From contig NZ_RCDB01000001.1 of NCBI RefSeq assembly GCF_003651225.1, positions 434,001 to 498,000 on the forward strand: 64,000 nt of DNA. The letters run 5' to 3'. The first letter of the stretch is position 1. Each line of letters starts with the position of its first letter. This document shows positions 47,916 to 63,877 of this stretch, piece by piece. The stretch is from Microbacterium telephonicum. Lineage in GTDB: Bacteria; Actinomycetota; Actinomycetes; Actinomycetales; Microbacteriaceae. The position numbers and the translations under genes are program-made. A model generated the notes under the pieces. That model saw only the letters and a program-made list of their open reading frames with translations. It was not told the DNA's origin and ran no database searches.

Positions 47916-48539
47916 CTATCTCAGGGGGAGGCCGAGGGTGGCCATGAACGGTTCGGGGTCGATCGCGACCCCACGCACTTGCACCTCGTAATGCAGGTGA
48001 CAGCCCGACGACTTGCCGGTCGACCCCTCCAACCCGAGGACGGTCCCGGCGGTCACCTGTTGACCGACTCCGACCAGCAGCGAATCCCACTGCATATGGC
48101 CGTAGAGGGTGACGACCCCGCCGCCGTGGTCGATGCGGACGGTGTTGCCCCACCCCGGCATCGGGCCGGCGTTGATCACCCGGCCGGGACCGGCCGCGTA
48201 GATGGGGGCACCGCAGGGCTGGTCCATGTCGTATCCGAAGTGGTTCGCGGGGCAGATCGCGCAGTTCTTCACCGGGTGGTACCCGAACCCGCGACCCGTC
48301 GAATACGACCCGGCCAGCGGATATCCCCAGTCGCCGACCACCGTCGGCATCGCCGCATCCGTCCCCGCGGCTTTGACCGTGAGGTCGGTGGTCGCCGAAC
48401 CCGCGAGGGCGAGCGGGACCATCACGAGCGGCGCGAGGATCAGCCCGCACAGCAGCGCGAGACACAGCAGCACCGCGGTGACTGCTTTCCGGCCGGTCCT
48501 CGTGTTCGCGAGGGCAGTGACTGCGGCCGGGGCTCCCAT
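47916..48539 (-). CDS. M23 (LytM-type) cell-wall peptidase
   Basis: 207 residues. One membrane helix (TAVLLCLALLCGLILAPLVM) anchors a LytM domain with NHFGYDMDQ (H-x3-D), YGHMQW and SSGCHLHYEVQV (H-x-H). All four metal ligands are present. It would open the cell wall for the conjugation channel. Its start lies 2 bases after the stop of the gene upstream. Confidence 0.92.
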   Translation of the reverse strand: MGAPAAVTALANTRTGRKAVTAVLLCLALLCGLILAPLVMVPLALAGSATTDLTVKAAGTDAAMPTVVGDWGYPLAGSYSTGRGFGYHPVKNCAICPANHFGYDMDQPCGAPIYAAGPGRVINAGPMPGWGNTVRIDHGGGVVTLYGHMQWDSLLVGVGQQVTAGTVLGLEGSTGKSSGCHLHYEVQVRGVAIDPEPFMATLGLPLR

Positions 48540-48540
48540 C

Positions 48541-49287
48541 TCAGCCCTCCACAGGCTCCGTGAAGTACCGCACCACCTTGCAGTCCCCAGCCCGCTGGGG
48601 AGAATCCGGAGTCGGCACCGACTCCGGACCACACAGCACCTGCACGCTCACGCGCACCTGCTCCGTGTACGACGACTCGGCCCCAGAACCGTCCGTCTGC
48701 GTGAACACCATCTCCACATCCGCAGTCCCGATGCGCATGTCCCCCGACGCGTCCTCCGGCGCCGCCGACAACACCACATCCCCCGGAACAGACCCCGCCA
48801 CACGCCCCGTCTGCGACGCCATCTGATCCCACATCTCCTGCGGAAACACCACCGCATGCCGCAACTCCAGCTGCGCAGCAGCGAGCTCATCCTGGCGGTC
48901 GGTCTGGCTCGCGTATCGAGTGTCAGGGGTGAACCAGGTATCGAGATAACCGACCCACTCATCGCGGGACGACAGCGTTGTGTCCAGTGTCGTAACCGCC
49001 GACAACGCGGCACGCACGTACTCCTCCGCGTCTGTCGTCACCGGCTCCGGAACCCACCCCGACTCTGAGGCGGACGAATCCACAACGGCACCGCCCGGCT
49101 CGACCGGACTCGAGGACGGCGTCCCGGACGGGGGAGTCGCCGTGCCGCTGTCGGGAGCGGTCGGGGAGGGTGAAGGGCTACCGATCGCCACGTTCACGAT
49201 CAGCGCCACAATGCCGGCCAGGAGCACGACGCCGCCGACGATCGCCCACACCAGACCCGCGCGGCGAGGACCCTGACGAGACATCAT
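48541..49287 (-). CDS. TcpC/VirB8-like membrane protein
   Basis: 248 residues. One N-terminal membrane helix (AGLVWAIVGGVVLLAGIVAL), a Ser/Pro-rich linker and an extracytoplasmic domain (EEYVRAALSAVTTLDTTLSS, SYTEQVRVSVQVLCGPESVP) fit the VirB8/TcpC type. It is first in the minus-strand transfer operon. The 337-base gap upstream should hold its promoter; no clear one was identified. Confidence 0.75.
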   Translation of the reverse strand: MMSRQGPRRAGLVWAIVGGVVLLAGIVALIVNVAIGSPSPSPTAPDSGTATPPSGTPSSSPVEPGGAVVDSSASESGWVPEPVTTDAEEYVRAALSAVTTLDTTLSSRDEWVGYLDTWFTPDTRYASQTDRQDELAAAQLELRHAVVFPQEMWDQMASQTGRVAGSVPGDVVLSAAPEDASGDMRIGTADVEMVFTQTDGSGAESSYTEQVRVSVQVLCGPESVPTPDSPQRAGDCKVVRYFTEPVEG

Positions 49288-49525
49288 CTCGAGTCCTCCC
49301 TACCGTCGCGCCGCCACTGAACCCGGCCGCTTCCGTCGTGATGGGGCCCGATGCTAGCCACGGCACCAACGATGGTGCAGGACAGATCGGCACGTCTGTG
49401 GATAACTCTCGAGATCCCAGACGCGGTAGGAGAGAAACCATACGACCGGGAAGAAACCCAGTCTGTAGGCCATTCGGGGGACAGCGTGACGCCGCCGCGA
49501 GGTGCGGTGCGAGGAACGCTGGCCG

Positions 49526-49556
49526 TTGACATGAGTGGATACTACAGCGCTACACT
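49526..49556 (+). promoter_or_regulatory. Possible promoter for the HTH gene at 49625
   Basis: TTGACA (49526-49531) and TACACT (49551-49556) are separated by 19 bases, a little long but plausible for a vegetative promoter. They lie about 70 bases before the GTG at 49625. Confidence 0.4.
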
Positions 49557-49624
49557 TCCGATGTGTACCCCTAAATTATCCACTTTGCTGGACGAGCGCA
49601 CCCGGCACGGGAGACAATGATCCC

Positions 49625-49942
49625 GTGCCTCGATACACCCGCCCCGTGAACAGCGAACACGCGGAGGACCCCATCGACGCTCTCGGCAACCGGGTCAGAG
49701 CCATGATCATCGGCTACCTGCGCGAACACCCCGACGCCACCCGCGCGGAGATCGCCGCTGCGCTCGACATCATCCCGCCGACGGTGTCCAAGGCCCTCGT
49801 TAAGCTAATCGAGCACGAGCTCGTGGTCGCCGATCCTCCACGCGAGGTCGCAACGCGCGGGCAGTGGGTGCGGTATCGGGTCAACGCTCCCGCCGTCAGT
49901 GAGCTCTATCTGCAGCTGGGTCAGGTCATCGGCGAGGTGTAG
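49625..49942 (+). CDS. Winged-helix (ArsR/MarR-like) regulator
   Basis: 105 residues. NRVRAMIIGYLREHPDATRA, EIAAALDIIPPTVSKALVKL and EHELVVADP-type wing give a winged HTH that starts with a short N-terminus. It reads away from the transfer operon and may repress it. The GTG start has GGGAGA upstream with long spacing. From 49943 to 50231 I see no gene. Confidence 0.75.
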   Translation: MPRYTRPVNSEHAEDPIDALGNRVRAMIIGYLREHPDATRAEIAAALDIIPPTVSKALVKLIEHELVVADPPREVATRGQWVRYRVNAPAVSELYLQLGQVIGEV

Positions 49943-50231
49943 CGCCGCCCAGACTCTGAAGTCTGATTGGTGCGCGTCGCTCAACGGGCGCCCATTGCCC
50001 AACGCCTAAACGCGAGGCCCATTCCCAATCCGTTGTGGCCCGTTCAGAAGCGTTCGTCACCGCGCAAGCGTTCAGGGACGGCAAAGGTGCTTGCCACGGA
50101 CTGGGTGCGCCCGGTGGCGCTTGATTCGACAATCCCCTCGAGCACGTCGATGACGTGGCACGCCATATCGGCCGATTCCACGCGTAGTCAGGGACCTTGC
50201 GAGGGTTGAACACGTACTTCGAGAGGACCGT

Positions 50232-50609
50232 CGTGACGGTGCGGCGATCGTCAACACTGCGTCGGTAGCCGCCACGAACGGTCTCCCGAACCGCGCTCTA
50301 TACAGCGCGACGAAGGGGGCGGTCATCGCGCTCACCCATGCGATGGCCGCTGATCACCTATCCGATGGCATCCGCGTCAACGCCGTCGCACCAGGTAGGG
50401 CCGACACGCCCTGGGTGCTGCGCCTCCTCTCCGCCTCGGATGACCTTGTCGCCACCACGGCGAACCTGCGTGGACGGCAGCCGATGGGGCGGCTCGTCAC
50501 CGCAGAGGAGGTCGCCTTCGCCATTTCGAATCTCGCCTCGCCTCTCGCCGGATCGACGACGAGAACCGTGTTCACCGTCGACGGGGGACTGACAACGCTG
50601 CGCAAGTGA
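50232..50609 (+). pseudogene. C-terminal remnant of a short-chain dehydrogenase/reductase
   Basis: The frame reads DGAAIVNTASVAATNGLPNR, then ALYSATKGAVIALTHAMAAD with the catalytic YxxxK, then VNAVAPGRADTPWVLR and a normal end (AGSTTRTVFTVDGGL). The NAD-binding N-terminal 100 or so residues (TGxxxGxG and NNAG) are absent. No start is present in the remaining frame before the catalytic Tyr. It lies just before the rhamnose genes and was probably cut when the element border formed. Confidence 0.75.
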
Positions 50610-50725
50610 GGGTGCACGTTGGTCGTCGCGCGATGACGCCTTCCTGGAAACGATGAGTGCACGGTCGAGTGTGATTTGATCCGGCCCGCGGCGTCCTCAC
50701 AGTCGGTGCGCTGCGCCAGCATGGT

Positions 50726-50737
50726 TGAAACGATTCA
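50726..50737 (+). promoter_or_regulatory. LacI-type operator before rhaD
   Basis: TGAAACGATTCA is a near-perfect palindrome with the central CG typical of LacI-family sites. It lies 56 bases before the rhaD start. The core GAAACGAT occurs again at 50647-50654, exactly 80 bases away, which would allow looping. No LacI gene is in the window. Confidence 0.45.
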
Positions 50738-50792
50738 GCATTCGGGCTGCACGCAACCACTGGCGCAAGCCCCCGTGAAAGGACAACCGGCG

Positions 50793-51611
50793 ATGACGAC
50801 GCGACCGACGATCGAGGAGTATCTCGCGAACATGGGTGCCGGTGGCGCCCGGATCTGCGAGATCGACGCGAGCGAGGCCGGTGCCGGCAACATCTCGATC
50901 TGCGTCGACGAGCTACCGCGGGTGCGGGAGGTGTTTCCGATCTCGGAGCGCATCCAGCTGCCCCTGCCCGCCCACAATCTCGCCGGCCGCACTCTGCTGG
51001 TGACCGGGTCGGGACGCCGGCTGCGGCAGATCTCCGAGGACCCGGTGGCCGCGATCGGCGCGGTGATCGTGGACGCGGACGGTGTCCACGCGGAGATGCT
51101 CACGAGCCCGCGGCGCGCGTTCGAGAAGCTGACGAGCGAGTTCAACTCCCACCTGGGCGTGCACGACGACCAGGTGGGACGGCGGAACCTGCCGTTCCAC
51201 GCGGTGGTGCATGCGCAGCCGCCGCACCTGACGCACCTGAGCCACATTCCGGCGTACCGGTCGGACCGGGCGATGAACACGGCGATCCTGCGGTGGGAGC
51301 CGGAGTCGATCGTCGCGCTGTCGCAGGGCATCGGGGTGCTGGAGTTCATGGTCCCCGGCTCGCCGCAGTTGATGGAGGCGAACGTGGCCCGGCTGCGGGA
51401 GTTCGAGATCGTGCTGTGGTCCAAGCACGGCACCATGTCCCGCTCCGACGTGTCGGTCACCCGCGCGGTCGACCGGGTCGAGTATGCCGAGACCGGCGCG
51501 AAGTACGAGTACATGAACGTGCTCGCCGGTGGGAAGGGCGAGGGACTGCTGCCGGAGGAGATCCGCGCCGTCGCCGACGCGTTCGGCATCCAGTCGCCCT
51601 GGCTGTCCTGA
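50793..51611 (+). CDS. rhaD: L-rhamnulose-1-phosphate aldolase
   Basis: 272 residues, the length of E. coli RhaD. Class II aldolase features are present: EAGAGNISICVDELPR (substrate loop), LLVTGSGRRLRQIS, the zinc histidines in FHAVVHAQPPHLTHLSH (H-A-H-type), and a late VLWSKHGTMSRSD. It splits L-rhamnulose-1-phosphate into glycerone phosphate and L-lactaldehyde. It is first in the operon with the kinase and the lactaldehyde reductase. The isomerase and transporter are not in the window. Confidence 0.93.
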   Translation: MTTRPTIEEYLANMGAGGARICEIDASEAGAGNISICVDELPRVREVFPISERIQLPLPAHNLAGRTLLVTGSGRRLRQISEDPVAAIGAVIVDADGVHAEMLTSPRRAFEKLTSEFNSHLGVHDDQVGRRNLPFHAVVHAQPPHLTHLSHIPAYRSDRAMNTAILRWEPESIVALSQGIGVLEFMVPGSPQLMEANVARLREFEIVLWSKHGTMSRSDVSVTRAVDRVEYAETGAKYEYMNVLAGGKGEGLLPEEIRAVADAFGIQSPWLS

Positions 51612-51612
51612 C

Positions 51613-53067
51613 ATGATCGCCGCCAGCGTCGTCGCCGTCGACCTCGGAGCCACCAGCGGACGCGTCGTCCTCGGACACGTGGACACGAACCGGCTGGGCC
51701 TCGACCTCGTGCACCGTTTCGCGAACACGCCCGTCCCGGTGTGGGACGGGCTGCGGTGGAACATCCTCGGCCTGTATGGGGAGGTGCTCACCGGCATCCG
51801 CGACGCCCTGTCGCGCGAACCGGGGGCGCGGTCGATCGGCGTCGACAGCTGGGCGGTCGACTATGCCCTGATCCGGGGCGACCGGGTGCTGGGAAACCCG
51901 TTCCACTACCGTGACACACGCACCGCGCGCGGCGTGGACCGGGTGCACGCCCGCATCCCCCACAGCGAGCTGTACCGGCGCAACGGTCTGCAGTACTTGC
52001 CGTTCACCACCGCCTACCAACTGGCGACCGAACCGCAGGAGATGCTCGGCCTCGCCGACCGGATGCTGCTGATCCCCGACCTGATCGGATACTGGCTCAC
52101 CGGACGCCAGCGCGCCGAGATCACCAACGCCTCCACCACCGGGCTGCTGCCCCTCGGCGCCGACGAGTGGGACCGGGACCTGCTGGAGCGGCTCGGCATC
52201 CCCACCCACCTCACCCCGCCTCTGATCGCACCCGGGGAGACACTCGGTGCCCTTGCGGGGGACACCGCCGCCCACGTGGGAGCGACGGGGGAGCTGCCGG
52301 TGGTCGCAGTCGGCTCCCACGACACCGCATCCGCCGTCGTCGCGATCCCGATGACCGACCCGGCCACCGCCGCCTACATCTCCTGCGGCACGTGGGGACT
52401 GGTCGGGCTCGAACTCGAGCGTCCGGTCGTCACCGACACGGCTAGGGAGGCCGGGTTCACGAACGAACGCGGCGTGGACGGACGCACCCGGTTCCTCCAC
52501 AACGTGATGGGGCTCTGGCTGCTCAGCGAAAGTGTGCGGCAGTGGGAGCGCGAGTCCGGACGGCAGGTGCAGCTGTCCGAACTGCTCGCCTGCGCCGCAC
52601 TCGTCCCGGCAGACCGGACTGCGGTGTTCGACGTCGACGACCCCGCCTTCGCCGCGCCCGGCGACATCCCCGCCCGCATCGCCGCCTGGTACGCCGACCG
52701 GGACCTGCCCGCCCCGGCCAGCCGGCCCGAGTTCGTGCGGGCCATCATAGAAAGCCTCGCCGACGCATTCGCCCGCGGCATCGCCGCCGCCGCCGACCTC
52801 ACCGGCCGCACCGTGGCCACCATCCACCTCGTCGGCGGCGGCTCCCTCAACACCCTGCTGTGTCAGCGCACCGCCGGCCGTGCCGGCATCCCCGTGATCG
52901 CCGGACCCGTCGAGGCCACCGCGCTCGGCAACGTGCTCATCCAGGCCCGCGCCATCGGCGCTGTCCCCGCGGATGCCGACCTCGAAAGCCTGCGCGGCCT
53001 GGTCGCCGCGACCCAACCGCAACGGCAGTACCTCCCACAGCCGCAGCACGCGCGGCTCACCTCCTGA
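51613..53067 (+). CDS. rhaB: L-rhamnulokinase
   Basis: 484 residues of the FGGY sugar-kinase family: VVAVDLGATSGRVVLGHVDT at the N-terminus, NILGLYGEVLTGIR, VDSWAVDYALI, VAVGSHDTASAVVAIPM and the late LVGGGSLNTLLCQRTA ATP-site motif. It phosphorylates L-rhamnulose with ATP. It starts one base after the rhaD stop. Full length for the family. Confidence 0.94.
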   Translation: MIAASVVAVDLGATSGRVVLGHVDTNRLGLDLVHRFANTPVPVWDGLRWNILGLYGEVLTGIRDALSREPGARSIGVDSWAVDYALIRGDRVLGNPFHYRDTRTARGVDRVHARIPHSELYRRNGLQYLPFTTAYQLATEPQEMLGLADRMLLIPDLIGYWLTGRQRAEITNASTTGLLPLGADEWDRDLLERLGIPTHLTPPLIAPGETLGALAGDTAAHVGATGELPVVAVGSHDTASAVVAIPMTDPATAAYISCGTWGLVGLELERPVVTDTAREAGFTNERGVDGRTRFLHNVMGLWLLSESVRQWERESGRQVQLSELLACAALVPADRTAVFDVDDPAFAAPGDIPARIAAWYADRDLPAPASRPEFVRAIIESLADAFARGIAAAADLTGRTVATIHLVGGGSLNTLLCQRTAGRAGIPVIAGPVEATALGNVLIQARAIGAVPADADLESLRGLVAATQPQRQYLPQPQHARLTS

Positions 53068-53113
53068 ACCACCGCCGACGCCGACCCGGCGCCACCCGAC
53101 GAAAGGAAACACA

Positions 53114-54265
53114 ATGGTCAATCGCATGGTCTGGAACCAGATGGCGTACTTCGGAGGAGGCTCGATCACCGTCATCCCCGACGAGATCGCCCGCCGCGGC
53201 TACACCAAAGCGCTCGTCGTCACCGACCCCGGCCTGCTCACCGCCGGCACCGTCGACAACGTCACCGCGCTGCTGGACGCCGCACAGTTCCCGTACGAGG
53301 TGTACGCGGAGGTGGTCCCCAACCCGACCATCGAGAACGTGCAGCGCGGGGTCGAGGTGCTCGCCGCATCCGGCGCCGACGTGCTCATCGCCGTCGGTGG
53401 GGGCTCCCCGCAGGACACCTGCAAAGCGATCGGGATCATCACCCGCAACCCCGAGTTCGCCGACGTCCGCTCCCTGGAAGGCGTCGCACCCACCAAGAAC
53501 CCGTCGGTGCCGATCATCGCCATCCCCACCACCGCCGGCACCGCCTCCGAGACCACGATCAACTACGTCATCACCGACGTGCAGAGCCAGCGCAAGTTCG
53601 TCTGCGTCGACCCGCACGACATCCCCCTGCTCGCCATCGTCGACCCCGAGATGATGTCCGGCGCACCCCGCGGCCTCAAGGCGGCGACCGGCCTGGACGC
53701 CCTCACCCACGCGATCGAGGGATACACCACCGCCGCCGCGTGGGAACTGTCCGACATGTTCCACCTGAAGGCGATCCAGCTCATCGCCGGCAACCTCCGC
53801 GCCGCCGTCGACGGCGACCCGCACGCCATGGAGCAGATGGCCCTCGCCCAGTACATCGCCGGCATGGGCTACTCCAACGTCGGCCTCGGCCTCGTCCACG
53901 CCATGGCCCACCCCCTCGGCGCGTTCTACTCCGCCCCCCACGGCGTCGCCAACGGCATCCTCCTCGCCCCGATCATGGCCTTCAACGCCGACGCGACCGG
54001 CGAAAAGTTCCGCGACATCGCCGCCGCGTTCGGCGTCAAAGACGCCGCCACCATGCCCCTCCACGCCGCCCGCGAAGCCGCCGTCACCGCCGTCGCCACA
54101 CTCGTCGACGACCTCGGCAGCCCCACCACCCTCCGCGACGTCGGCGCGAACGAGGACGACCTCGCCGCCCTCGCCCAAGCCGCATACGACGACGTCTGCC
54201 GCGGCGGCAACCCCCGCGATGTCGACACCGCCCAGATCCAGGAGCTCTATACGGCCGTGTACTGA
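53114..54265 (+). CDS. fucO: Lactaldehyde reductase / iron-containing alcohol dehydrogenase
   Basis: 383 residues, the length of FucO. It has AVGGGSPQDTCKAIGII (nucleotide site), PTTAGTASETTINYVIT, the metal ligands in TGLDALTHAIEGYTT (Asp, His) and GLGLVHAMAHPLGAFYSAPH (His, His). It reduces the L-lactaldehyde made by RhaD to 1,2-propanediol with NADH. The ATG follows GAAAGGAAACACA. It is the last gene of the rhamnose operon; the DNA after it is the attachment region. Confidence 0.9.
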   Translation: MVNRMVWNQMAYFGGGSITVIPDEIARRGYTKALVVTDPGLLTAGTVDNVTALLDAAQFPYEVYAEVVPNPTIENVQRGVEVLAASGADVLIAVGGGSPQDTCKAIGIITRNPEFADVRSLEGVAPTKNPSVPIIAIPTTAGTASETTINYVITDVQSQRKFVCVDPHDIPLLAIVDPEMMSGAPRGLKAATGLDALTHAIEGYTTAAAWELSDMFHLKAIQLIAGNLRAAVDGDPHAMEQMALAQYIAGMGYSNVGLGLVHAMAHPLGAFYSAPHGVANGILLAPIMAFNADATGEKFRDIAAAFGVKDAATMPLHAAREAAVTAVATLVDDLGSPTTLRDVGANEDDLAALAQAAYDDVCRGGNPRDVDTAQIQELYTAVY

Positions 54266-54365
54266 CCCCCGCCTCTCGATCTTGGGGGCGTAGCGTTGCA
54301 GGTGCGGCGCCCCCACGATCGACTGAATCGCTCTATCGGGGCATCGGCGCGCATCACTCGGAGGT

Positions 54366-54603
54366 TGCGTCCCATTTGCGTCCGGGCGAGCAACGGTAAG
54401 GCGAACTCAACGTCAGTGCGGAACCAAGGAATCCGCGGAAACACGCGGCTGACGCAGGTAAACGTAGGCGAGTCTCGTCTCGGAGACCGGGTTCAAATCC
54501 CTCCGTCTCCGCCATTATTTGTCCTGATCAGAGGCTAATTCATCGCCGCTCTGGGCGGGGATGCGTCCGATTTGCGTCTCGTAGTTGACGCAGAGTAGAC
54601 GCA
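54366..54603. repeat. Cluster of seven TGCGTC sites around an attachment scar
   Basis: TGCGTC occurs at 54366, 54377, 54562 and 54573, and its complement GACGCA at 54451, 54587 and 54598. They flank the tRNA-like scar at 54489-54514 on both sides, as integrase arm-type sites would. Random expectation in 240 bases is well below one. No integrase gene lies here. Confidence 0.6.
54489..54514 (+). other. Attachment-site remnant: tRNA-Ser-like 3' end
   Basis: The sequence GGGTTCAAATCCC continuing into TCCGTCTCCGCCA reads as the T-arm, acceptor strand and CCA of a serine tRNA. The 5' part of a tRNA is missing, and the bases before it do not fold into one. This is the usual trace left when an element inserts in a tRNA gene. 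It separates the rhamnose block from the defence island at 55-62 kb. Confidence 0.6.
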
Positions 54604-54666
54604 TGCGACTTGGGGTGCGGCTATCGCCGAAGTGAAAAGGCCGATCAGAAGCGCATTCCGATCGAA

Positions 54667-54695
54667 GAGACGGAGGGATTCAGCCCCTCCGTCTC
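54667..54695. repeat. Inverted repeat resembling the attachment scar
   Basis: GAGACGGAGGG (54667-54677) pairs with CCCTCCGTCTC (54685-54695) around ATTCAGC. The right arm shares CCCTCCGTCTCC with the scar at 54489-54514. It could be a partial second attachment copy or a hairpin. There is no T-run. No gene is supportable from 54696 to 54984. Confidence 0.5.
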
Positions 54696-54984
54696 CCACG
54701 CGAGGCGCCAGCGGTGGGAGCCTCAGAGCTGGGCGCAAGAGCGACGGCCATCGGGCAATCATCCGAGCGGGATATACGTGCAGTTACCCACTTAGCCCGG
54801 CAGCGTCGCGGAGCATGCCGGCTTCGCGAACGCTGATCCACCCTTTTCTCAGTAGCCGTGTCGCGATCCGCGAGGACCGGTGTCGATGGTTCGCGAGAGA
54901 GTGAGGATGTTCCGAGGTCGGCAGCAGCTGTCCAATAGAGTTAGCGAACCTCGTCATAGGAGGCGATTCCCCGTTGGAGGTTCC

Positions 54985-55563
54985 GTGGCGCTGCGCGCTG
55001 AATCCGCTCACGAAGAGGGACGTAAAGGCGTCTTCCGTACTAAGCGGTGGCTCGAAAGTACAACGCACATCGAGCTGAACTTCGACGCCTACGACTGGGC
55101 GTCCGAGTGCACCCTTAGCTGCCTGGATGGAGGACTACAGACGTTTGATCTTAAAGGTCACATCTACCAGTCGAAGTCCATGCTCTATGTAGAGAACAAG
55201 TCCTACACCTCCGTCGGCAGCCAGGCGAAGGACTACCAAGACTTCCTTGCGATCGCATACAGCGCGACGGCGGCGGAGATCTCCCGCACTCAGGACCCCC
55301 GGTGGCAGTTTATGTGGGTTACGACTTACCCATTTGCACAGAAGAAGTGGCTGAAGCTGACCAAGCGATCCCAGATCAAGGCGGCACTTGAGGCGGATAC
55401 GACGGGACTGCTCAACGGCAAACCGATCGACGAAGAGGTATTGGATCTGATGGCTAACAGGGTGTGGCTGCTGGTCTACAACAAGCGACAGGAAGAGTTC
55501 ACGTTGACTCCGAAGGAACTCAACATGATCGAGGCGAAGTTGAACCGGAAGGGCAAAGCATGA
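54985..55563 (+). CDS. PD-(D/E)xK nuclease-like protein, first gene of a two-gene system
   Basis: 192 residues from a GTG after GGAGG. EEGRKGVFRTKRWLES resembles the first helix of restriction-type folds, and FDLKGHIYQSKSMLYVENKS gives Asp-x(14)-Glu-x-Lys, the PD-(D/E)xK core, followed by a long helical tail. It could cut DNA. It overlaps the next gene by 4 bases (ATGA), so the two are translated together. There is no match I can name. It lies just after the attachment scar, as defence cargo often does. Confidence 0.6.
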   Translation: MALRAESAHEEGRKGVFRTKRWLESTTHIELNFDAYDWASECTLSCLDGGLQTFDLKGHIYQSKSMLYVENKSYTSVGSQAKDYQDFLAIAYSATAAEISRTQDPRWQFMWVTTYPFAQKKWLKLTKRSQIKAALEADTTGLLNGKPIDEEVLDLMANRVWLLVYNKRQEEFTLTPKELNMIEAKLNRKGKA

Positions 55564-56951
55564 CCATCGATGTTCAGGACGAAGCGCCCGTTGTGTCAGC
55601 CGTACGTCAGGCCAGAGCATATTCACGGTCGGCCGATGTGATCGATGGCGTGAAGACGGCTGTGATCGATGAGCTCAAGCGCCTCGACCCGACCCTCAAG
55701 ATCAAGAAGACCGACTACTTCAATCACAGTTATGCGCCGGACCTCGTTGCTGTTTGGCGGGAGGCAGGTCGAGAGCAGGAGCGCCGGATTTTCATCCGCG
55801 GATCGCTGTCCAGTGTTGTTGCTGCTGAGGACGTGCAGTCGCTGGCCGACCAGGAGCCGCTGCTGATTGGGCTGGGCGACGAGAAGAAGAAGGTGCTCGC
55901 TGATCTGCGCAAGCAGCTACCGGCCTCGACGCGGACACTGGCAACCGAGGTGTCCGCTACTTCCCGCATCCCCACGCTGACGCGGGACGAACAGCGGGAT
56001 ACGCAACTGTCGGGGCTGGTACGAGCAAACATCGTTCGCGGCGGCAGAGGTCTCCTCAATGATAAGGCCGCGGATCGAATCATCGCCGTCGAGGAAGATG
56101 AACCGCGCGAAGCTCTGAAGGCGTTTCAAACCACCGTTCGCCAGTTGTTCACCGGGGCGACCGCCGAGCGCTTGAATCGGACTGCTGGTCTCCTGAAGGA
56201 GTTTTTTGAGGAGCATCCTAGTCAGCAGACGTTGGGGCTGTTGCGTGCGGAACCTCTTCTCGATAGTGAGCTACGAGTCGTGCTGCCATATGTCTTGCGT
56301 CGCGCAAGCGAGGTGAAGTCCTCGGAGGTCTGGGAGGCGCTCGCGTCGATGCTGACCCTCGAGCGCCTCGAATCGATGTCTCCTTCTCTGGCTGACCTTG
56401 ATCTGACACCGATTGTCGCGCGCGCCACGAAGTCAATGACGGCTGGCCGTTCGGCACTATTCCCGAACACGGAAGTGGCGAACGACGAAGACGCCGAGCT
56501 GCCACCGTCGTGGAAGGTTCGAAGCGGCCGTCTTGTGGCCGATGTGCATCGTTGGGCGCTTTGGATGGGAACCGACGCCCGCAAAATCCGGGCGCGCGAC
56601 GACGGTACGGACGCCCGCTGGGATGAACTTGCGGCGCCCCTGCGTGCTTTCGATCTCACGGCCATTGAGCTTCATGGACTCACCCGTCAGCTGTCGGTCG
56701 GCAACGAGAATCCTGACACGCTCCGCGAAGATGTTGAGCGGATCCGCGGAACTATCGAGGACGACTTCCATGTCGCGGCAGTCACCGTTCGAGAGAAGGG
56801 CAATGCGGACGCCGGTGAGGTGAAGGTTGAGTTCGAGGGTGCGGTCGGGACTGGGAAGGCGACGGTGGACTTCCATATCCGCGCTGCTTCGCTTCTGGCC
56901 GTTCGACGTCCTCTTACAGACGAGGACATCGTGACACTCACAGGCGATTAG
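55560..56951 (+). CDS. Unknown partner protein of the two-gene nuclease-like system
   Basis: 463 residues. The N-terminal part (20-110) has DYFNHSYAPDLVAVWREAGR followed by RRIFIRGSL. This is shaped like a PD-(D/E)xK sheet, but Ile-Arg-Gly replaces Glu-x-Lys, so it looks like an inactive relative of its partner. The middle is helical (HPSQQTLGLLRAEPLLDSEL), and the C-terminal part is a charged beta/helix domain ending in DEDIVTLTGD. No P-loop, HEPN or methylase motif is seen. It could form a complex with the 54985 product for target recognition or control. Confidence 0.6.
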   Translation: MTIDVQDEAPVVSAVRQARAYSRSADVIDGVKTAVIDELKRLDPTLKIKKTDYFNHSYAPDLVAVWREAGREQERRIFIRGSLSSVVAAEDVQSLADQEPLLIGLGDEKKKVLADLRKQLPASTRTLATEVSATSRIPTLTRDEQRDTQLSGLVRANIVRGGRGLLNDKAADRIIAVEEDEPREALKAFQTTVRQLFTGATAERLNRTAGLLKEFFEEHPSQQTLGLLRAEPLLDSELRVVLPYVLRRASEVKSSEVWEALASMLTLERLESMSPSLADLDLTPIVARATKSMTAGRSALFPNTEVANDEDAELPPSWKVRSGRLVADVHRWALWMGTDARKIRARDDGTDARWDELAAPLRAFDLTAIELHGLTRQLSVGNENPDTLREDVERIRGTIEDDFHVAAVTVREKGNADAGEVKVEFEGAVGTGKATVDFHIRAASLLAVRRPLTDEDIVTLTGD

Positions 56952-57064
56952 CACGGTCCGATCCAATGGCGCAGAGATGCCCTCGCGGCAGGGCCGTTTT
57001 CACGCAGGTTGCCTGCTAGATCTGCCCGTACCTGATGGCGAGCCAGCGGCGGATAGCTTTATGG

Positions 57065-58336
57065 TCAGGCTGGCCCGAAGGCGCTCTCCTGCACGGCCTT
57101 GACGACCTCCTCGCTGGCCCCCGCCCAGCCGAACCGCCGGAGCAGGTGAAGGCTGGGAGCGATGGCCAGCTCTCGGCCGGAGCGCGGACCGCCACCTGCG
57201 GGAAGCTGAACCGTGCGCTCCCAAGCCGACGTCTGCAGTTGGTGCGTGTCGTAGAAGGGTCGCCAGCGGCGGTCTCCGGGGACCAGTTCCCAGCCTTTCG
57301 CGCCGATGAGCTCGAGCGTTACTTGGTACGGCTCCGCCTGGGCTACTGCAGCTTGCAGTCGCTGTGCGAACATCAGGACTTCGGTGAAGTCGGTCACGGG
57401 CTGCCAAAAGGGGAAGTACCCGTGGCCGGGCGTCGCGTCCGCTCTTCCGTCGTGTGCATGGCGTCCGTCAATGGGCAGTGCGTGCCACGACTGGAACTGT
57501 CCACTCTCGAATGCGACCCAGGCCTCCCGGTGCATGACCGTTTCTTGCTCGGTCACCCACGACGCGCCCAGCGATGGGCGGGACACGAACGGGTATGGCC
57601 AACCGCGCAGATGCAGCGCTTCGCGTCGTATGAGCGAGGCAATCGCGGTGTAGTCGACACGCTCCGCACGGAACTCCTGGGGGCGGATTGTGAACTTGAA
57701 GTGAGCGGCCGTCGTGATGTCCGATATGTCAGCATCGGCCAGGTATTCCGCGGACTCGTCTTCGTAGCGCGATTGTGCGGTCTCCGACCCGGCCGCAGTG
57801 AGGTTCGCGGCCGCGGCGAGCGACATGAACTTCGTCACCTGCTTTTGTGTCGCGAGTTGCAAAACGGCGCGCAGTTCATTCTGCGTGTGCATGGCCGAAC
57901 TCTCCGGCTTGCGGAACGACCGGGTGTAGAGCTGTCCACGCTGGATAATCCGCGGGAAGTCTCTCGCTGCGAGCACAGGGATGTCGTCGAACTCCGCGAC
58001 TAGGAGGACCACCACGTCCTTCCCATCCGAGAGTTGGCGGCCAGCACGGTCGAGTCGCAGCGGTGGGTCGGCGAACTTATTCAGCTTGTCGGAGACATTG
58101 TCGTAGTCGAGCCACCCGACAAGCTGCTCCGCAGTGAGTCCGGAGCGGGCATCATCCGCCTCATCGACCCCGATGATGATGGACCCGCCATCTCGCTGAT
58201 TCGCGAGCGCGAGTGCGGCTCGCGCGACCTTTGCGACGAACTCCGGATCATTGATGGAGCCTGGTCCCTTGAACTCGACGGACCGGATCTCGTATCCGCT
58301 TTCAAGGAGCGCGGCGATCTCATTGTTGGATAGCAC
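57065..58336 (-). CDS. AlbA_2 (Schlafen-type) domain protein
   Basis: 423 residues. The N-terminal domain (18-165) has the AlbA_2 pattern: ESGYEIRSVEFKGPGS, AALALANQRDGGSIIIGVDE and a VVLLVAEFDD strand, then IIQRGQLYTRS. The C-terminal 250 residues are a separate domain with many Trp and His (SWHALPIDGRHAHDG) and no known motif. AlbA_2/Schlafen-like proteins bind nucleic acid and occur in defence islands. It lies 14 bases from a perfect 18-bp palindrome, probably its own operator. Confidence 0.8.
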   Translation of the reverse strand: MLSNNEIAALLESGYEIRSVEFKGPGSINDPEFVAKVARAALALANQRDGGSIIIGVDEADDARSGLTAEQLVGWLDYDNVSDKLNKFADPPLRLDRAGRQLSDGKDVVVLLVAEFDDIPVLAARDFPRIIQRGQLYTRSFRKPESSAMHTQNELRAVLQLATQKQVTKFMSLAAAANLTAAGSETAQSRYEDESAEYLADADISDITTAAHFKFTIRPQEFRAERVDYTAIASLIRREALHLRGWPYPFVSRPSLGASWVTEQETVMHREAWVAFESGQFQSWHALPIDGRHAHDGRADATPGHGYFPFWQPVTDFTEVLMFAQRLQAAVAQAEPYQVTLELIGAKGWELVPGDRRWRPFYDTHQLQTSAWERTVQLPAGGGPRSGRELAIAPSLHLLRRFGWAGASEEVVKAVQESAFGPA

Positions 58337-58349
58337 CTGTTCAACGTAG

Positions 58350-58462
58350 GTGATGCTCGAGCATCACTACCAGCGCCCGTCGTTGGTGCAGTAAAGGTAG
58401 GGGCTGGCTCCCCGCCGCCCCTACCGCAACGCGCGTTTTCGGGGATGATGCTCGTGCGTCAC
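58350..58462. promoter_or_regulatory. Paired operator-like sites upstream of the AlbA_2 gene
   Basis: GTGATGCTCGAGCATCAC (58350-58367) is a perfect 18-bp palindrome 14 bases before the AlbA_2 ATG. TGATGCTCGTGCGTCAC at 58446-58462 matches it in 15 of 17 bases and is 95 bases away, in front of a small plus-strand gene. Two copies in a divergent region suggest repressor binding with looping. Confidence 0.6.
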
Positions 58463-58487
58463 GATCGGTCGGCGTAGCGTCGCGTCC

Positions 58488-58601
58488 ATGGATCCGTTCG
58501 ACGAAGCGCAACAGCCTCGGTGTCCTGAATATGGCACGGTTCTCGATACCGCGAGGCGTATCTGCCGTGCATGCAATCTCGCGTTGTCGACTCGATCGTG
58601 A
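58488..58601 (+). CDS. Tiny zinc-ribbon-like protein (37 residues)
   Basis: From ATG 58488: MDPFDEAQQPRCPEYGTVLD and a CRACNLA end, i.e. C-P-x-Y-G...C-x2-C-N. The normal first CxxC of a zinc ribbon is changed to CPEY, so binding is doubtful. It starts 26 bases after the second operator-like site. The start has no strong ribosome site. It may be a small regulator or antitoxin, or chance. No gene is seen from 58602 to 58846. Confidence 0.35.
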   Translation: MDPFDEAQQPRCPEYGTVLDTARRICRACNLALSTRS

Positions 58602-58846
58602 TCGCAAATCGCACCGACCCGATGCGCTGACAACGTCGCGCGCCTGAGCTGGAACGGCTCAGCTCTAGCCGGACGCATCGCCCAGGTACCTGCGGGGCCG
58701 CAGCACACAAAGACGCCCCTTCAGCGGTAGGTGCCTGTATGTGGAGCGCCGGAGATCTGAAGCTCGACCTCGACGAGCGCCAGCCGCCGTCGCTCCGGCA
58801 GGTACCGCGGTGCACGGCACGCCATTCGTCGAGCTAGCCAAGATAG

Positions 58847-61261
58847 ATGCCGTTGGATACGTTTGCCCCACGTGAAGCACCCGACGCGATTAGGCTCCAC
58901 GAAGAGTACTGGGGAGGGCTTGTGGTCGGAGCTACTGCGGAGCAGCTATTGGAGCGCCACGCGGACATCAATTGGCGCACGCGGTTCGTGGACATCAATG
59001 ATCTGATCGAGATCCTGCGAGACTGCATCATTGCCGATGGTTACACAATCCCCGACGACCTGAACGAAGCAATCGCCCTCACCGCTCGTGGTAACGCTCT
59101 GAAGAGCCGACTCATCCGCAAAGAGGAAGTGCCCGCTAAAGAGGCTCACCTCATGTGCGCCTTGACAGTCGGGCACGATGATCTCTTCATCGACGTCTTG
59201 AACACCGACATCGCCGCCCTGAGAGACTCCATCGGTCGACAAATACGTGAAGGTGCTGTCCGGTTTCCTTTCGTCTACGGGCGCGCGCTCTATGACGCTT
59301 TCGCCGACGAGTTCGAGGACGAGAAGGACTACCTCTCCTCCGAGGAGACCGTCAAACTCCTTGGAAAGATCCCGTTCGGTGTATTCCAGTACGGCCGATA
59401 CGTTGTCGGTCCGAGCGGGATTTCGGAGTCAAAACACTCTCGCGCGCTCCGTTTCTCAAAGAGGGTCCCAGCGTTCCACTGCAGTGATCCAGTTTGTCGC
59501 GACCTGCATTCGGTCATCCTCAGCACCGGCCATAACGCTGACATCAACGCACAGCGCCATAAGCTCACGCGCGTACTCGAGGGCGAAAGCAAGCCAGCAG
59601 CAGACTGGGCGGGGCTGGCGATGGAGATCAGTCGGCTGAGTGACAGCCATTTCGGCAATCACTGGATCGCCCCAATGGTCACACTGCTTGGCGATGCCCT
59701 CAGCGACGACGAACTCCGAGCGGTGCTCGCGTTGCTGTCAGGCGTTGAAGTGACCGCCGAACGACCCAATCTGCTCGAGCGCGCATTGCAGTGGAGCGAC
59801 AAGAAGCTTGCCGGAACAGTCGACCGCATGGTGCTTGGCGGCGACATCTGCGTCCCGCTCGGCGAGGTACGTACCCCGGTGTCCACTGACCACATGCGAT
59901 CGGGTGCATTTCGTCTCCAGCCGCAGCTGGGCTCAAGAGGCGTGCGCTTCGTATCAGGCGACCCCGGCTTGGCGACGTTGCGAGAGCGTGAGCTCGTTCG
60001 GACGCTGTACCTGACCGGCAACGATGATGAGCGCCACGAACTTGATTGGCAGCTGAGATCCGTCGACGGGGTATCACTCGACGTGCGCCTGGATGACTAC
60101 CTCCGGACCACCACGCCTACAGAAGCGCTGACTCGCCTCGTATTGTCGCGAAGCAGCAGTGCTATAGCTGCGAGCGAAGTCGCGGGTCTTGGCGAGGTCG
60201 ACGGAGTAGGAGATGGTGACCTCATCGCACGCCTTGCTTGGAAGCTGGGCTTCGAGGGCGGAAGCGCAGACGACTCGCATGCTGATTTCTGGACTCAGCA
60301 GGAGAAGTTGTCGGCGATCGTCCAGAGCTGGCTCGGTTCGGGACCCGGAGACACGAATGAGTTCAGGGGGCAAGCAGCTACTTATTTCAGCGCACTTGAA
60401 GGCATTCTTGAGGAATCACTTGCCTTTGCGTCGTGGGCGCTGCTGAGGGACCACATCACCGCCGGTCGGCCGTTCAGCTACGACAACGAGGCTGACCGCA
60501 AACATGGTCTCGACCTCCTGCAGGCGGCGTATACCGAGTACGTCACGAAGCGCCCGGGGGAGAAGCTCAAGTTCGACGGTCGTTTGACGATTTACCCACT
60601 AGTTCGAGGCTTCGGCGTTCTCGCTGACGGTCTGAATTCTCTTATCGCGAAGGCATCTAGCCTGGCGCGCCCACTAAGCGACCATCCGGAGTACGCGACG
60701 CGGAGCGCGCTTCAACGGTTCCCGTTCGCATCGACCGCACCTTTCCTCGACCTCGCCGCACACAGCAGAACTCGAATCGTGGAGGGGCTCCGGGACATTG
60801 AGCTAACGCTCAACGCCGAGACGCTGTCGAGCGTGCGAAATGACTACTCGCACTACCGACGGACCTCGCCAGAGCTCGCCGCTATGGAGCGAACTCTTGA
60901 GTCTGTGGGACGCGCCGTAAGAGCGATCGAGAATCTCGGCTTCGGCCTGAATCTCTGCCATCCCTCAACAGAGACCAGCGACCAATGGGGACGTCGCACG
61001 ATTGGCTTCGTCGGTCCGCGCAGCCTGAATCACGTTTTTGCTCGACCCTCCAGCCTCGAATGGGTCGGCTTTCCATCGCTGCGTCGGCCCCAATACCTCG
61101 TGCGTTCCGCGGCCTTCGACGACGCAAACGAGGTGCTTCGATTCGAGCGCCAGTACGACAGTGAGTATGCGCGAATGTGGGACGACTACCCGCGCCCACG
61201 AAAGAAGGCTCAACCCACGATCGACAGCTTGGCCGAGGACGCACCCGCCGGTGCGAGCTAA
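58847..61261 (+). CDS. 804-residue HEPN-motif protein, function unknown
   Basis: 804 residues from an ATG at 58847. It is mostly helical. The motif SSVRNDYSHYRRTSPELAAM gives Arg664-x4-His669 at a helix end near the C-terminus, as in HEPN toxins. The 160-residue region around 170-330 is also helical; residues 330-400 contain beta strands (VPLGEVRTPVSTDHMRSGAF). No P-loop or methylase motif is seen. Large HEPN proteins are often effectors of abortive infection. It lies 245 bases after the tiny zinc-ribbon gene. No named family was recognised. Confidence 0.65.
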   Translation: MPLDTFAPREAPDAIRLHEEYWGGLVVGATAEQLLERHADINWRTRFVDINDLIEILRDCIIADGYTIPDDLNEAIALTARGNALKSRLIRKEEVPAKEAHLMCALTVGHDDLFIDVLNTDIAALRDSIGRQIREGAVRFPFVYGRALYDAFADEFEDEKDYLSSEETVKLLGKIPFGVFQYGRYVVGPSGISESKHSRALRFSKRVPAFHCSDPVCRDLHSVILSTGHNADINAQRHKLTRVLEGESKPAADWAGLAMEISRLSDSHFGNHWIAPMVTLLGDALSDDELRAVLALLSGVEVTAERPNLLERALQWSDKKLAGTVDRMVLGGDICVPLGEVRTPVSTDHMRSGAFRLQPQLGSRGVRFVSGDPGLATLRERELVRTLYLTGNDDERHELDWQLRSVDGVSLDVRLDDYLRTTTPTEALTRLVLSRSSSAIAASEVAGLGEVDGVGDGDLIARLAWKLGFEGGSADDSHADFWTQQEKLSAIVQSWLGSGPGDTNEFRGQAATYFSALEGILEESLAFASWALLRDHITAGRPFSYDNEADRKHGLDLLQAAYTEYVTKRPGEKLKFDGRLTIYPLVRGFGVLADGLNSLIAKASSLARPLSDHPEYATRSALQRFPFASTAPFLDLAAHSRTRIVEGLRDIELTLNAETLSSVRNDYSHYRRTSPELAAMERTLESVGRAVRAIENLGFGLNLCHPSTETSDQWGRRTIGFVGPRSLNHVFARPSSLEWVGFPSLRRPQYLVRSAAFDDANEVLRFERQYDSEYARMWDDYPRPRKKAQPTIDSLAEDAPAGAS

Positions 61262-61321
61262 CGCGCCTCGATGACGCCGATCTGCACGCGAGGCCCCGCC
61301 AGAGGGCAACGCCCGGATAGG

Positions 61322-61733
61322 GATCTAATGCGAGCGGCTGAAGCGTCGTTGGAGCTGGGCGAAATACGAGACGCCGTTGACGACGCATCGAAGGCCTACC
61401 GTCATGCGACCGCGGCGTGGAAACGTCTCCGACCCCAGCAACGGCTTCCAGGGTCCATACGCTCGAGCGTTCTTGGGCGCAGCGACCGAGAAGATGGCGT
61501 CCACACAGAGATTGCTGCAATGACCCAAGCTTTGCAGGCGGCCGCTTTCACCTCGGACACCGCGGAGGCGGAGTGGTTTGTTCAAGCACTATCCGAACGC
61601 GGCGACGTGCTGGATCACGACGATGCGGACCGCGTGATCGCGTTCGTCTTCGTGTGGATCCTCGGTTTTGAGGCCGCGGCGTCGACCTGGGTATCCGATC
61701 GCCAATTGCGAGCGGCGCTGGCGGCGCGCATGG
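61322..61733. repeat. 412-bp inverted repeat, copy 2 (partner at 9207-9618)
   Basis: Near-identical, gap-free inverted copy of part of the HEPN-motif gene at 8440-9912. This copy keeps that gene's reading frame from LMRAAEASLELGEIRDAVDD to LRAALAARM but has neither its beginning nor its end. Its right border joins directly to a truncated regulator gene. It is the mark of a recombination event. Confidence 0.9.
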
Positions 61734-62163
61734 ACGGGCCAACTTCGCCCGCTTCCACTTTCTTGATCCCGCGTCTCGGGACTTCTTCGTCGACTGGGAA
61801 GGAGGAGCCTCTGCGACAGTCGCGCTCCTTCGCGCCGAAGCTGGCCGGGAACCGGGCGACCGGGCCCTTCAAAACCTCATCGGAGAACTCAGCAGCCATA
61901 GCCGCGAATTTTCCGGCCTGTGGGCGGCTCACGACGTGCGCTCCCGACACGAGGGCATCAAACGCCTGCAGCACCCCATAGTCGGGTTCATCGAACTGAC
62001 CTATCAATCAGCCGAACTCGCCGACACCACCCGCGCGGCCCGCAACCTGAACCTCTACACCGCCGAACCCGGCACACCTCACGAAGACCGGATGAAGGTC
62101 CTCACCAGTTGGGCCGCGACCGCAGCTTCGACGCCACAAGAAGGCGCCGCCACGCTCGACTGA
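61734..62163 (+). pseudogene. C-terminal fragment of an MmyB-like XRE regulator
   Basis: The frame from about 61742 reads ARFHFLDPASRDFFVDWEGG, then ASATVALLRAEAGREPGDRA, HDVRSRHEGIKRLQHPIVGF, and LYTAEPGTPHEDRMKVLTSW. This is the ligand-binding domain of MmyB-like helix-turn-helix regulators down to its natural end. The HTH N-terminus (about 100 residues) is lost and replaced by the 412-bp repeat at 61733. Confidence 0.8.
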
Positions 62164-62240
62164 GATCTCCTACAGCGCGGTCTGGGGCCAACCTTCTGAC
62201 GCGAAGAATGTCAGCGACGGAGAATGAGCCAAGCGGGCCA

Positions 62241-62288
62241 GAAGCCTCCGGCCGACCGTCGCGTTTGGGACGGCAGGCCGGAGGCTTC
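62241..62288. terminator. Bidirectional terminator-like hairpin
   Basis: GAAGCCTCCGGCC (62241-62253) pairs with GGCCGGAGGCTTC (62276-62288), with an inner stem CCGTC/GACGG. It lies between convergent ends: the MmyB fragment on plus and the DUF3500 gene on minus. Confidence 0.7.
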
Positions 62289-62303
62289 GGCGGATCGGGT
62301 GCG

Positions 62304-63575
62304 CTATCCGTTCGACGGCGGGGTTCCGCCGTCACCCAGGGCGCCGCCCATACCGCCGGTGGCTGCTTGCTGGGTGACACTGCCCGCGTAGTCGTTGGTC
62401 GGGTCGCGGTAGATGGTGTGCACGTGCCCCCAGCCGGATGTTGAGACGCCGTCGACGTCGGCCCCCGCGGAGCCCTGCTGGGCCTGGAAGGCGATGTAGA
62501 CGTTCGGGCCGGAGATGGAGAAGTTGATGCCGTCGCCCGTGCTCATGTCGTACGTCGTCTCACCGGACCACGCGATCACGGTGGTGTCGAGCGTCGCTTC
62601 GATCTCGGCGAGGGCGGCGGCGGTGGTCTCGCCGTCGGCCATGCCGACCCAGTTGGCCATCAGCTCGAGGAGAAGCTGCTTCTGCTCGTCGGTGAGGTCC
62701 GCGCCCGTAAGCCCTGAGCCGGTGGAGAAGTCGCAGGTGTCGCCAGGGGCGCACATGCTGACGTCGCCGGACGTAAGGGTTGCCTGCTGCTCGGCAGTGA
62801 GGCTGTCGAAGAACGCGAACGCGTCGGTGTAGATGCCGTCGAAGGGCTGCACCTCGTTGCCGCTCTCGTCGGTGTAAACGGCCGGCTGCACGCCCAGGTG
62901 GGTGGGAGCGAAGGTGATCGCATCGGTGGATCCGTCCAGAGACGCGTTGATACCGAGGTGGTGGCCGCCGACCTGCACTTCCCAGGCGGTGGTGTCGGAG
63001 GGGTCGCCGAAGAACGCGATGTAGTACTGGCCGAGAGAGGTCTCGGTGCTGTTGCTGTTCTCGAGGAGGTACTGGTCGCCGTTCATGATGCCGACAACCG
63101 TGGCATACGCCTCGTCGCTGAGGAGCGCTTCGAGGACGGCCAGCGCGGCGGTCTTCTGCTCGTCCGTCAGATCTGCGAGATTGAGGCCGGCGCGCTCGAC
63201 GAAGGTGACGGGGAAGTTCGACCATGACGTGGTCTTCGTCTCGTCGTCGTACGCGTAGAGCACGGCTTCGCGCTGCTCATCGGACAGCGTCGCCAGGAAG
63301 GCCTCGGCAGCAGCGGTGGTGTCCGCGATGGTCTCGGCCGAGGTCGTCGCCGACGTGCTGGCCGCCGCGGTTGAGGTCGTCGTCGTTTCCTCCGACGTCG
63401 ATGACGTGCTGGTTGTGGTGGGAGTGACGGTCGTCGCGCCAGTAGCGCAGCCGGTGAGAGCGATCGACATGAGTACGATCCCGGCACCGATCGTCAGCGC
63501 CGGCTTCGCACGGCGAGGCGCCGCGGCGTCGGAGGATGTGCGGCGGAAGCGAGAGAAGGGGTTCGTCGTGTGCAT
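62304..63575 (-). CDS. DUF3500 lipoprotein
   Basis: 423 residues. The signal ALTIGAGIVLMSIALTGCAT has a lipobox, followed by a long Thr/Ser-rich linker. The DUF3500 domain has FLATLSDEQREAVLYAYDDE, YIAFFGDPSDTTAWEVQVGG (then HHLGIN) and a NVYIAFQAQQG end with GHVHTIYRDPTNDYAG. A C-terminal tail is glycine-rich. Members are secreted or surface proteins of unknown function. The ATG at 63575 is preferred to an earlier in-frame start. Confidence 0.85.
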   Translation of the reverse strand: MHTTNPFSRFRRTSSDAAAPRRAKPALTIGAGIVLMSIALTGCATGATTVTPTTTSTSSTSEETTTTSTAAASTSATTSAETIADTTAAAEAFLATLSDEQREAVLYAYDDETKTTSWSNFPVTFVERAGLNLADLTDEQKTAALAVLEALLSDEAYATVVGIMNGDQYLLENSNSTETSLGQYYIAFFGDPSDTTAWEVQVGGHHLGINASLDGSTDAITFAPTHLGVQPAVYTDESGNEVQPFDGIYTDAFAFFDSLTAEQQATLTSGDVSMCAPGDTCDFSTGSGLTGADLTDEQKQLLLELMANWVGMADGETTAAALAEIEATLDTTVIAWSGETTYDMSTGDGINFSISGPNVYIAFQAQQGSAGADVDGVSTSGWGHVHTIYRDPTNDYAGSVTQQAATGGMGGALGDGGTPPSNG

Positions 63576-63877
63576 GCCCACAACCTTCGCCGCCCTCACC
63601 AAATAGCTGCTTCATCAAACCTTGGACGCTTCTATGAAGCCGACTGTTGGGCCCACTTTGGCGAAACGAGGCAGTCTGAGCTGATTGCGGAGTACGACGA
63701 CGCCACGAGACGCCGGCGCGGGGATCGCCGACGCCTCGCCGTGCGTCCGCATGGGACGCACGTGGGGTGAGAGCTTTCGGGCGCTACTCGCCCCAGGCGG
63801 TATTTACGCTTCCAGGCCGCGTGACGGGCGGTTTCCGTCACAGGCGTCCTGGAACGTGGATGTGTGGACTAAGACGC

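Follow-up and report, generated by a model that had tools for sequence, protein, structure and literature searches.

A mobile gene pair of a predicted nuclease and a partner with an altered nuclease-fold domain, a probable anti-phage system of Actinomycetota

What do two overlapping genes of no recognised family do beside an attachment site in Microbacterium telephonicum? They lie in the window analysed here, a stretch of 64,000 nucleotides (GCF_003651225.1, contig NZ_RCDB01000001.1, positions 434,001 to 498,000 of the forward strand). The original prediction saw in them an active and an inactive nuclease, a strong candidate for a new restriction or abortive-infection system. Both genes are located exactly where they had been placed, including the ATGA that forms a 4-base overlap between the end of gene 1 and the start of gene 2. 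Gene 1 starts with a GTG at 54985, and a GGAGG is present 4 bases upstream. The features of the locus are:

54489..54514, + strand: attachment-site repeat of 26 bp, identical to the tRNA-Ser(GCT) 3' end, at the left end of the second island
54878..54984, + strand: upstream leader (presumed promoter and ribosome-binding site GGAGG), conserved with the pair; blastn homology to the Microbacterium oryzae locus L005
54985..55563, + strand: gene 1, 192 aa, predicted active PD-(D/E)XK nuclease
55560..56951, + strand: gene 2, 463 aa partner protein, ATG start at 55560
55560..55979, + strand: gene 2 residues 1-140, predicted disabled PD-(D/E)XK-fold domain (AlphaFold, Foldseek, VIA-align, conservation)
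56007..56435, + strand: gene 2 residues 150-292, helical domain (AlphaFold secondary structure); no fold recognised
56439..56948, + strand: gene 2 residues 294-463, alpha/beta domain (AlphaFold), fold uncertain

Neither protein gave a significant family match in Pfam, PADLOC, NCBIfam or PHROGs. Gene 1 had no match at all up to E 1 in these four libraries, and gene 2 had two insignificant matches, both in Pfam. PADLOC-DB 2.0.0, which dates from 2023 and does not cover systems described later, returned no family up to E 1 for either protein. Sequence searches with the two proteins, or with profiles of 16 relatives, led to no convincing relative of solved structure, and nothing in the two-gene unit was recognised as an ATPase, methyltransferase or nucleotide-signal domain. 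For comparison, 25 distinct pairs were collected from Actinomycetota chromosomes, plasmids and four viral contigs; near-copies (L027 and L035) are counted separately in this number, and L042 and L044-L050 were repeat fetches of the same contigs.

A PD-(D/E)XK core of the form Asp-x14-ENK had been predicted for gene 1. The motif reads D55-x14-E70-N71-K72, and K20, D55, E70 and K72 were invariant in all 25 distinct relatives. Since D55, E70 and K72 never change, Asp-x14-ENK is not a chance occurrence, and the predicted motif was borne out. The AlphaFold model of gene 1 was weak (pLDDT 58.5, pTM 0.63, alignment of 7 sequences) and shows a helix, two strands, a helix and a strand surrounding D55 and E70/K72. 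These elements and the structural matches are compatible with the alpha-beta-beta-beta-alpha-beta core, but the first core strand is not clear in the model. Top matches in Foldseek were Cap4 (E 2e-3), LmuA and Avs3 (probability 0.99), BstEII and XisH, none of them at E 0.001 or better. With VIA-align the highest scores were obtained for a HerA-DUF assembly (Z 7.3), LmuA (7.1), Avs3 (7.1) and a Pyrococcus repair endonuclease (6.8); McrBC, Card1, HamAB (Z 5.2) and SduA (Z 4.9) ranked lower, and below Z 5.6 unrelated proteins were interspersed. All Z-scores for both models stayed below 8, a range that may, according to the tool, mean a common arrangement only, and the case for a nuclease therefore rests on fold, motif and spacing jointly. 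Taken together in this way, gene 1 is predicted to be a small PD-(D/E)XK nuclease whose catalytic residues are all in place.

The model of gene 2 was good (mean pLDDT 81.6 over the whole protein, pTM 0.75). Apart from a degenerate version of the gene 1 fold, two further domains had been proposed, and the model indeed shows a helical domain (150-292) and an alpha/beta domain (294-463). Residues 5-179 aligned best in VIA-align with Nt.BspD6I, the large subunit of R.BspD6I (Z 7.0, 161 residues), followed by FokI, NucC, HindIII (6.2), Bax1 (6.0) and Cap4 (5.6). The best 19 rows comprised Nt.BspD6I, FokI, NucC, HindIII, Bax1, Cap4, PaqCI, YaeQ and MspJI, all of which we take to be PD-(D/E)XK-fold proteins, and unrelated enzymes appeared from Z ~4.4. 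FokI was also the first match in Foldseek (probability 1.00, E 0.04), where nothing reached E 0.001. For the C-terminal domain, a likeness to Iml3/CENP-L was not significant (Z 3.7-4.0), and the likenesses to sliding clamps, RdgC and Iml3 were too weak for use. No sequence homology between the two genes was detectable (hhalign probability 0.1%), which gives no support to a recent duplication as their origin. In one viral contig (L041 7929-9854) gene 2 carries a C-terminal repeat extension, Sel1/TPR-like by eye.

The relatives share the gene 2 signature T51-x2-FNH-[ST]-x2-PD61-x4-W66-x8-R75-x2-[YF]78-x-[RK]80, with T51, F54, N55, H56, P60, D61, W66 and R75 kept in 25 of 25. At the place of the second acidic residue, as judged by spacing, Y is found in 15 and F in 10 of the 25 sequences, never an acidic residue; two residues further on there is R in 21 and K in 4. 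The window protein has F78-I79-R80 where Glu-x-Lys is expected, an equivalence that comes from motif spacing and predicted strands and not from residue-level superposition. The degenerate same-fold domain of the original prediction thus stands as far as the predicted fold is concerned; the replacement had been given as RG, which begins only at R80, and the altered site is F78-I79-R80. Because a domain with a purely structural role would be unlikely to keep such a set of residues, we infer a binding function for it, with either DNA or gene 1 as the putative partner. Conservation of both sites, together with the Foldseek and VIA-align searches, supports the view of an active and an inactive nuclease; a nuclease fold is predicted and the pair is conserved, the two points on which this view could have failed.

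How tightly do the two genes belong together? At each of the 25 loci gene 1 immediately precedes gene 2, which is broken in L038. An overlap of 4 bases was counted in 21 of 25, a number biased towards overlap because start codons were picked nearest to the 4-base overlap. A separate search for gene 1 found it in 8 of 394 class genomes, all of them among the nine that carry gene 2, and in the ninth gene 2 is a C-terminal fragment with a stop. In the searches carried out, one gene without the other was encountered only where gene 2 is reduced to a fragment. The protein distances of gene 1 and gene 2 co-diverge across 24 loci with r = 0.90, and none of 2000 permutations reached this value (L038 was omitted here and from the tree, and included in the conservation over 25 loci). 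Judged from such distances, co-divergence shows co-inheritance, not contact. The dN/dS values were 0.052 for gene 1 and 0.067 for gene 2 between the window and L005, 0.088 and 0.096 between L033 and L043, and 0.091 and 0.233 between L035 and L036; by these ratios both genes are under purifying selection.

Broken copies were observed as well. On a Kitasatospora papulosa plasmid (L038 7932-9424) gene 2 is split into two frames and gene 1 is open. Remnants of gene 2, C-terminal or internal, are present at L028 7195-7497, L077 3034-3513 and L068 ~9861-10148. The matches in genome G551 (L028) and on an A. alpinus plasmid are C-terminal fragments that were left out of the pair count. No gene 1 was found beside these two remnants, and the pair may decay by loss of the nuclease side.

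To what extent is the pair a unit that moves on its own? Comparison of the window with L005 by blastn revealed 77.5% DNA identity across 54878-56947, ending at both sides: the homology begins 107 bases 5' of gene 1 and stops 4 bases short of the end of gene 2. No other similarity at E 1e-5 was seen in the fetched flanks (window from 46001 on). As the homology is confined to the pair and its leader, the cassette consists of two genes only; a DNA methyltransferase, a feature of type II restriction-modification, is not included in what window and L005 share. Rfam found no RNA across window positions 48000-64000.

The surroundings in the window fit this picture. As predicted, an attachment site adjoins the pair: the repeat at 54489-54514 lies 470 bp 5' of gene 1 and is one of three exact 26-bp copies in the genome, of which the first is the 3' end of an intact tRNA-Ser(GCT) (C1:433227-433318) and the third lies at C1:509439-509464. 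Because of these three copies, we view the window as most of a ~55-kb element plus the beginning of another stretch, ~21 kb long, in which the pair are the first called genes. Where this stretch begins, the G+C content drops from ~0.69 to 0.58. Attachment repeats, G+C fall and the restriction of L005 homology to the cassette support the mobile-island setting. There are thus two tandem elements at tRNA-Ser(GCT) (window 1-54514 for the first; C1:433319-509464 overall). The first has a phage-integrase-family gene adjoining the tRNA (C1:433600-434715, crossing the left edge of the window) and a TrwC relaxase (window 34363-37332); among the few genes scanned in the second stretch no integrase was identified. 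Also inside the first element, an AIPR-domain protein is encoded at 31320-33080 on the minus strand (Pfam E 2e-37), and the AIPR family is associated with abortive infection. Downstream of the pair, and convergent with it, follows a protein with a Schlafen AlbA_2 domain (57065-58336, minus strand, Pfam E 1.2e-5). A further protein of 804 aa (58847-61261, plus strand), in the low-G+C stretch, matched nothing significantly in the four family libraries named above.

Relatives were sought in several sets. A single scan of 84,980 species genomes with gene 2, by a method that detects close relatives only, gave two true relatives, from Microbacterium oryzae (L005, 83%) and Prauserella cavernicola (L006, 32%). 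Three Megasphaera loci from the same scan (L007-L009) were discarded; by sequence their protein is DNA gyrase subunit B, which has one 8-residue word in common with gene 2. Gene 2 was present in 4 of 198 relatives, the own genome counted, and by profile in 8 of 198 genus genomes, weak and partial matches counted (G036 and G974 are of this kind, and G976 has an additional shorter match, apparently a broken copy). Its distribution across one genus is patchy. Again with the own genome counted, it occurred in 9 of 394 class genomes and in 3 of 396 genomes of a phylum sample, one of which, G923 (L030), was rejected afterwards, having no match to the wider profile. Five of 72,556 plasmid records carried it, all actinobacterial and annotated 'hypothetical protein', and a second plasmid query added one fragment, that of A. 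alpinus. Among 50,697 phage records there was no match. Four IMG/VR viral contigs carry gene 2, and further queries returned either no contig or the same four. All relatives of known taxonomy belong to the Actinomycetota, with other phyla covered by the 84,980-genome scan and the plasmid, phage and viral sets only, so a wider spread is possible. In a tree of 24 loci, rows from the window's genus (to which L005 was assigned by its label Microbacterium), from plasmids and from viral contigs were mixed, and clustering was no greater than with shuffled labels, as expected of a mobile gene pair from such a tree.

The neighbours of the pair change from locus to locus. An HsdMSR operon lies directly upstream of it in L029 and an HsdR gene adjoins it in L041, where an antirepressor gene is also near. 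Downstream, a Shedu-like SduA gene follows after 9 bp in L022, and the gene of a type ISP enzyme after 90 bp in L037; a TIR protein is encoded 130 bp upstream in L005, an OLD/GajA-like ATPase ~1.9 kb away in L033 and an HsdS gene ~3.9 kb away in L034. Defence-type neighbours can therefore be named at 7 of 25 loci, for which we claim no enrichment. On viral contig L039 the pair has a DnaB-like helicase gene on one side and genes for primase, terminase and portal on the other; on L040 it is flanked by an integrase gene and a terminase gene. As judged from these surroundings, it occupies unrelated sites: an island, different plasmids and different viral contigs. Phages and satellites are known as carriers of defence genes (PMC9122126).

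These scans were uneven: 13 loci were covered by a tally of 67 proteins and four viral loci by a PHROGs tally, in which the viral contigs other than L039 and L040 were mainly viewed as a pool; plasmid neighbours were taken from the deposited annotation, and L068 and L069 lie outside the neighbour scan. As a PADLOC control, 65 ordinary chromosomal proteins matched 80 families, compared to 241 for the 67 neighbours, with 25 families listed in each case. Among the 25 listed for the control, PD-T4-6, PifA, MADS and AriA occurred with others, and restriction, AbiE and Shedu models did not. Since control proteins also match PADLOC widely, such matches are unspecific at the threshold used and only the named neighbours count. 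'MADS' neighbours were dismissed, the best mad2 match being the type I methyltransferase of L029 and the mad models also matching the control. AbiEi and AbiEii models, each with one neighbour in the tally and the locus not traced, were left unused, as were weak matches to the candidate systems PDC-S01, PDC-S05, MkoB and PDC-S48 in L031, L032 and L026; from three neighbours in L031, each scanned on its own, a single weak candidate match was obtained.

Which function would suit such a pair? We consider it rather likely that it is a self-contained mobile two-component nuclease system, most probably directed against phages: the partner with the disabled nuclease would sense or position, and cutting would fall to the small subunit. 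The main competing explanation, which we regard as unlikely, is direct restriction by a heterodimeric endonuclease that resembles R.BspD6I, cuts at a sequence or at modified bases and has a dead nuclease in its large subunit. The first domain of gene 2 has its best match there, the split into a large and a small subunit is the same (PMC6261011), and in L029, L034, L037 and L041 the pair has restriction-modification genes nearby. However, the scores of FokI, NucC and HindIII are tied with that of Nt.BspD6I, and no known DNA-recognition domain was seen. The large subunit of R.BspD6I is catalytically active, and the small subunit depends on this activity (PMC6261011), whereas gene 2 has a degenerate site in all 25 relatives and further domains of no recognised type. 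A methyltransferase is also lacking as a partner: among the 67 neighbour proteins of 13 loci, type I methyltransferase models matched two and N6_Mtase one (the latter among the 25 of 75 families listed), and by this count a methyltransferase is not a constant neighbour. Restriction of this kind could work only if it depended on modification (type IV-like) or borrowed the methylation of another system.

Less likely still is an addiction module of the toxin-antitoxin type, with gene 1 as a toxic nuclease, gene 2 as its neutraliser and stability of the island or plasmid as the outcome. Such modules would agree with adjacent, overlapping genes carried on plasmids, viral contigs and an island, but here the partner is larger than the nuclease and has three domains, and it keeps its own nuclease-fold residues (T51, FNH, PD, W66 and R75) in 25 of 25. 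The broken gene 2 beside an open gene 1 in L038 would not easily be allowed for a neutraliser. Most improbable of the three is a role in processing DNA for the mobile elements that carry the pair (in recombination, transfer or packaging) and not in defence: the pair does adjoin an attachment repeat in the window and sits between replication and packaging genes in L039, but it has no fixed partner genes, the DNA homology to L005 ends at the pair, its settings vary from island to different plasmids and viral contigs, and none of the 50,697 phage records has it.

For the preferred reading, a mobile nuclease system acting against phages, several known systems offer comparison. The effectors Cap4, LmuA, Avs3 and HerA-DUF4297 are the best fold matches of gene 1 and likewise use a PD-(D/E)XK nuclease as effector. 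Nucleases of Cap4, LmuA, Avs3 and the HerA-DUF type carry SAVED, SMC, STAND or HerA parts by fusion or have them as paired partners, and in Lamassu the SMC protein LmuB is encoded beside LmuA. No such domain was detected in the pair by the four family libraries, where the partner is a predicted nuclease-dead PD-(D/E)XK protein. The SAVED domain of CBASS Cap4 had no match in either protein (Pfam, PADLOC), and gene 1, at 192 aa, has no further domain; SMC and Lamassu models matched neither (Pfam, PADLOC), and the cassette shared with L005 holds two genes. Shedu SduA is a defence nuclease that is also found among the gene 1 matches and is encoded next to the pair in L022, but it belongs to another sequence family, and neither window protein matches the SduA models of PADLOC.

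Hachiman, too, consists of a nuclease and a larger partner, HamA being constrained and licensed by the sensing protein HamB (PMC12278908). HamB is a helicase, whereas gene 2 had no helicase family match up to E 1 (Pfam, PADLOC, NCBIfam). For the HamA (DUF1837) effector, gene 1 gave no sequence match in Pfam or PADLOC, and the structural match at Z 5.2 was to HamAB. A degenerate PD-(D/E)XK domain beside an active nuclease is also known from the iREase domains of BREX-related and HerA/FtsK-Orc systems; there they are parts of helicase or AAA+ ATPase proteins (PMC12839542, PMC10853773), unlike the present pair, in which no ATPase was recognised. The BrxHII iREase evolves fast and has no conserved residues, whereas the altered site of gene 2 is strictly conserved.

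Each theme of the pair has precedents, and the pair itself is in none of the libraries searched. Excerpts of PMC10853773 and PMC12839542 contain no description of it, and none was found in the literature by a word search, which misses families without a name, does not extend to preprints and is no proof of absence. We conclude that the pair is probably an undescribed anti-phage defence, as far as comparative evidence goes.

A possible mode of action can be outlined. The proteins of gene 1 and gene 2 would form a complex, in which the nuclease-dead domain of gene 2 may bind DNA, or a state of DNA made by the invader, and hold or place gene 1. Recognition probably resides in gene 2's own domains, since no ATPase, methyltransferase or nucleotide-signal domain was recognised. 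A phage-associated signal perceived by gene 2 would then license gene 1 to cut, the target being either the DNA of the invader or all cellular DNA. For other defence systems, a role as sensor or decoy has been ascribed to inactive REase domains (PMC12839542). In this specific form, an immune nuclease of Actinomycetota without ATPase or methyltransferase, whose nuclease-dead subunit with conserved altered site senses invader DNA and switches on a nuclease of the same fold, we put the proposal forward tentatively.

Actinobacterial defences have been little tested in the laboratory (PMC10482375). As all 25 relatives share the gene 2 signature unchanged, more members of the family should be within reach of a simple profile. 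If the proposal is correct, actinobacterial plasmids, islands and viral contigs would carry a minimal nuclease defence of two genes that uses a disabled nuclease as sensor, with no ATPase or second-messenger domain recognised, and the pair would offer a direct route to asking how a dead nuclease fold acts as a sensor.
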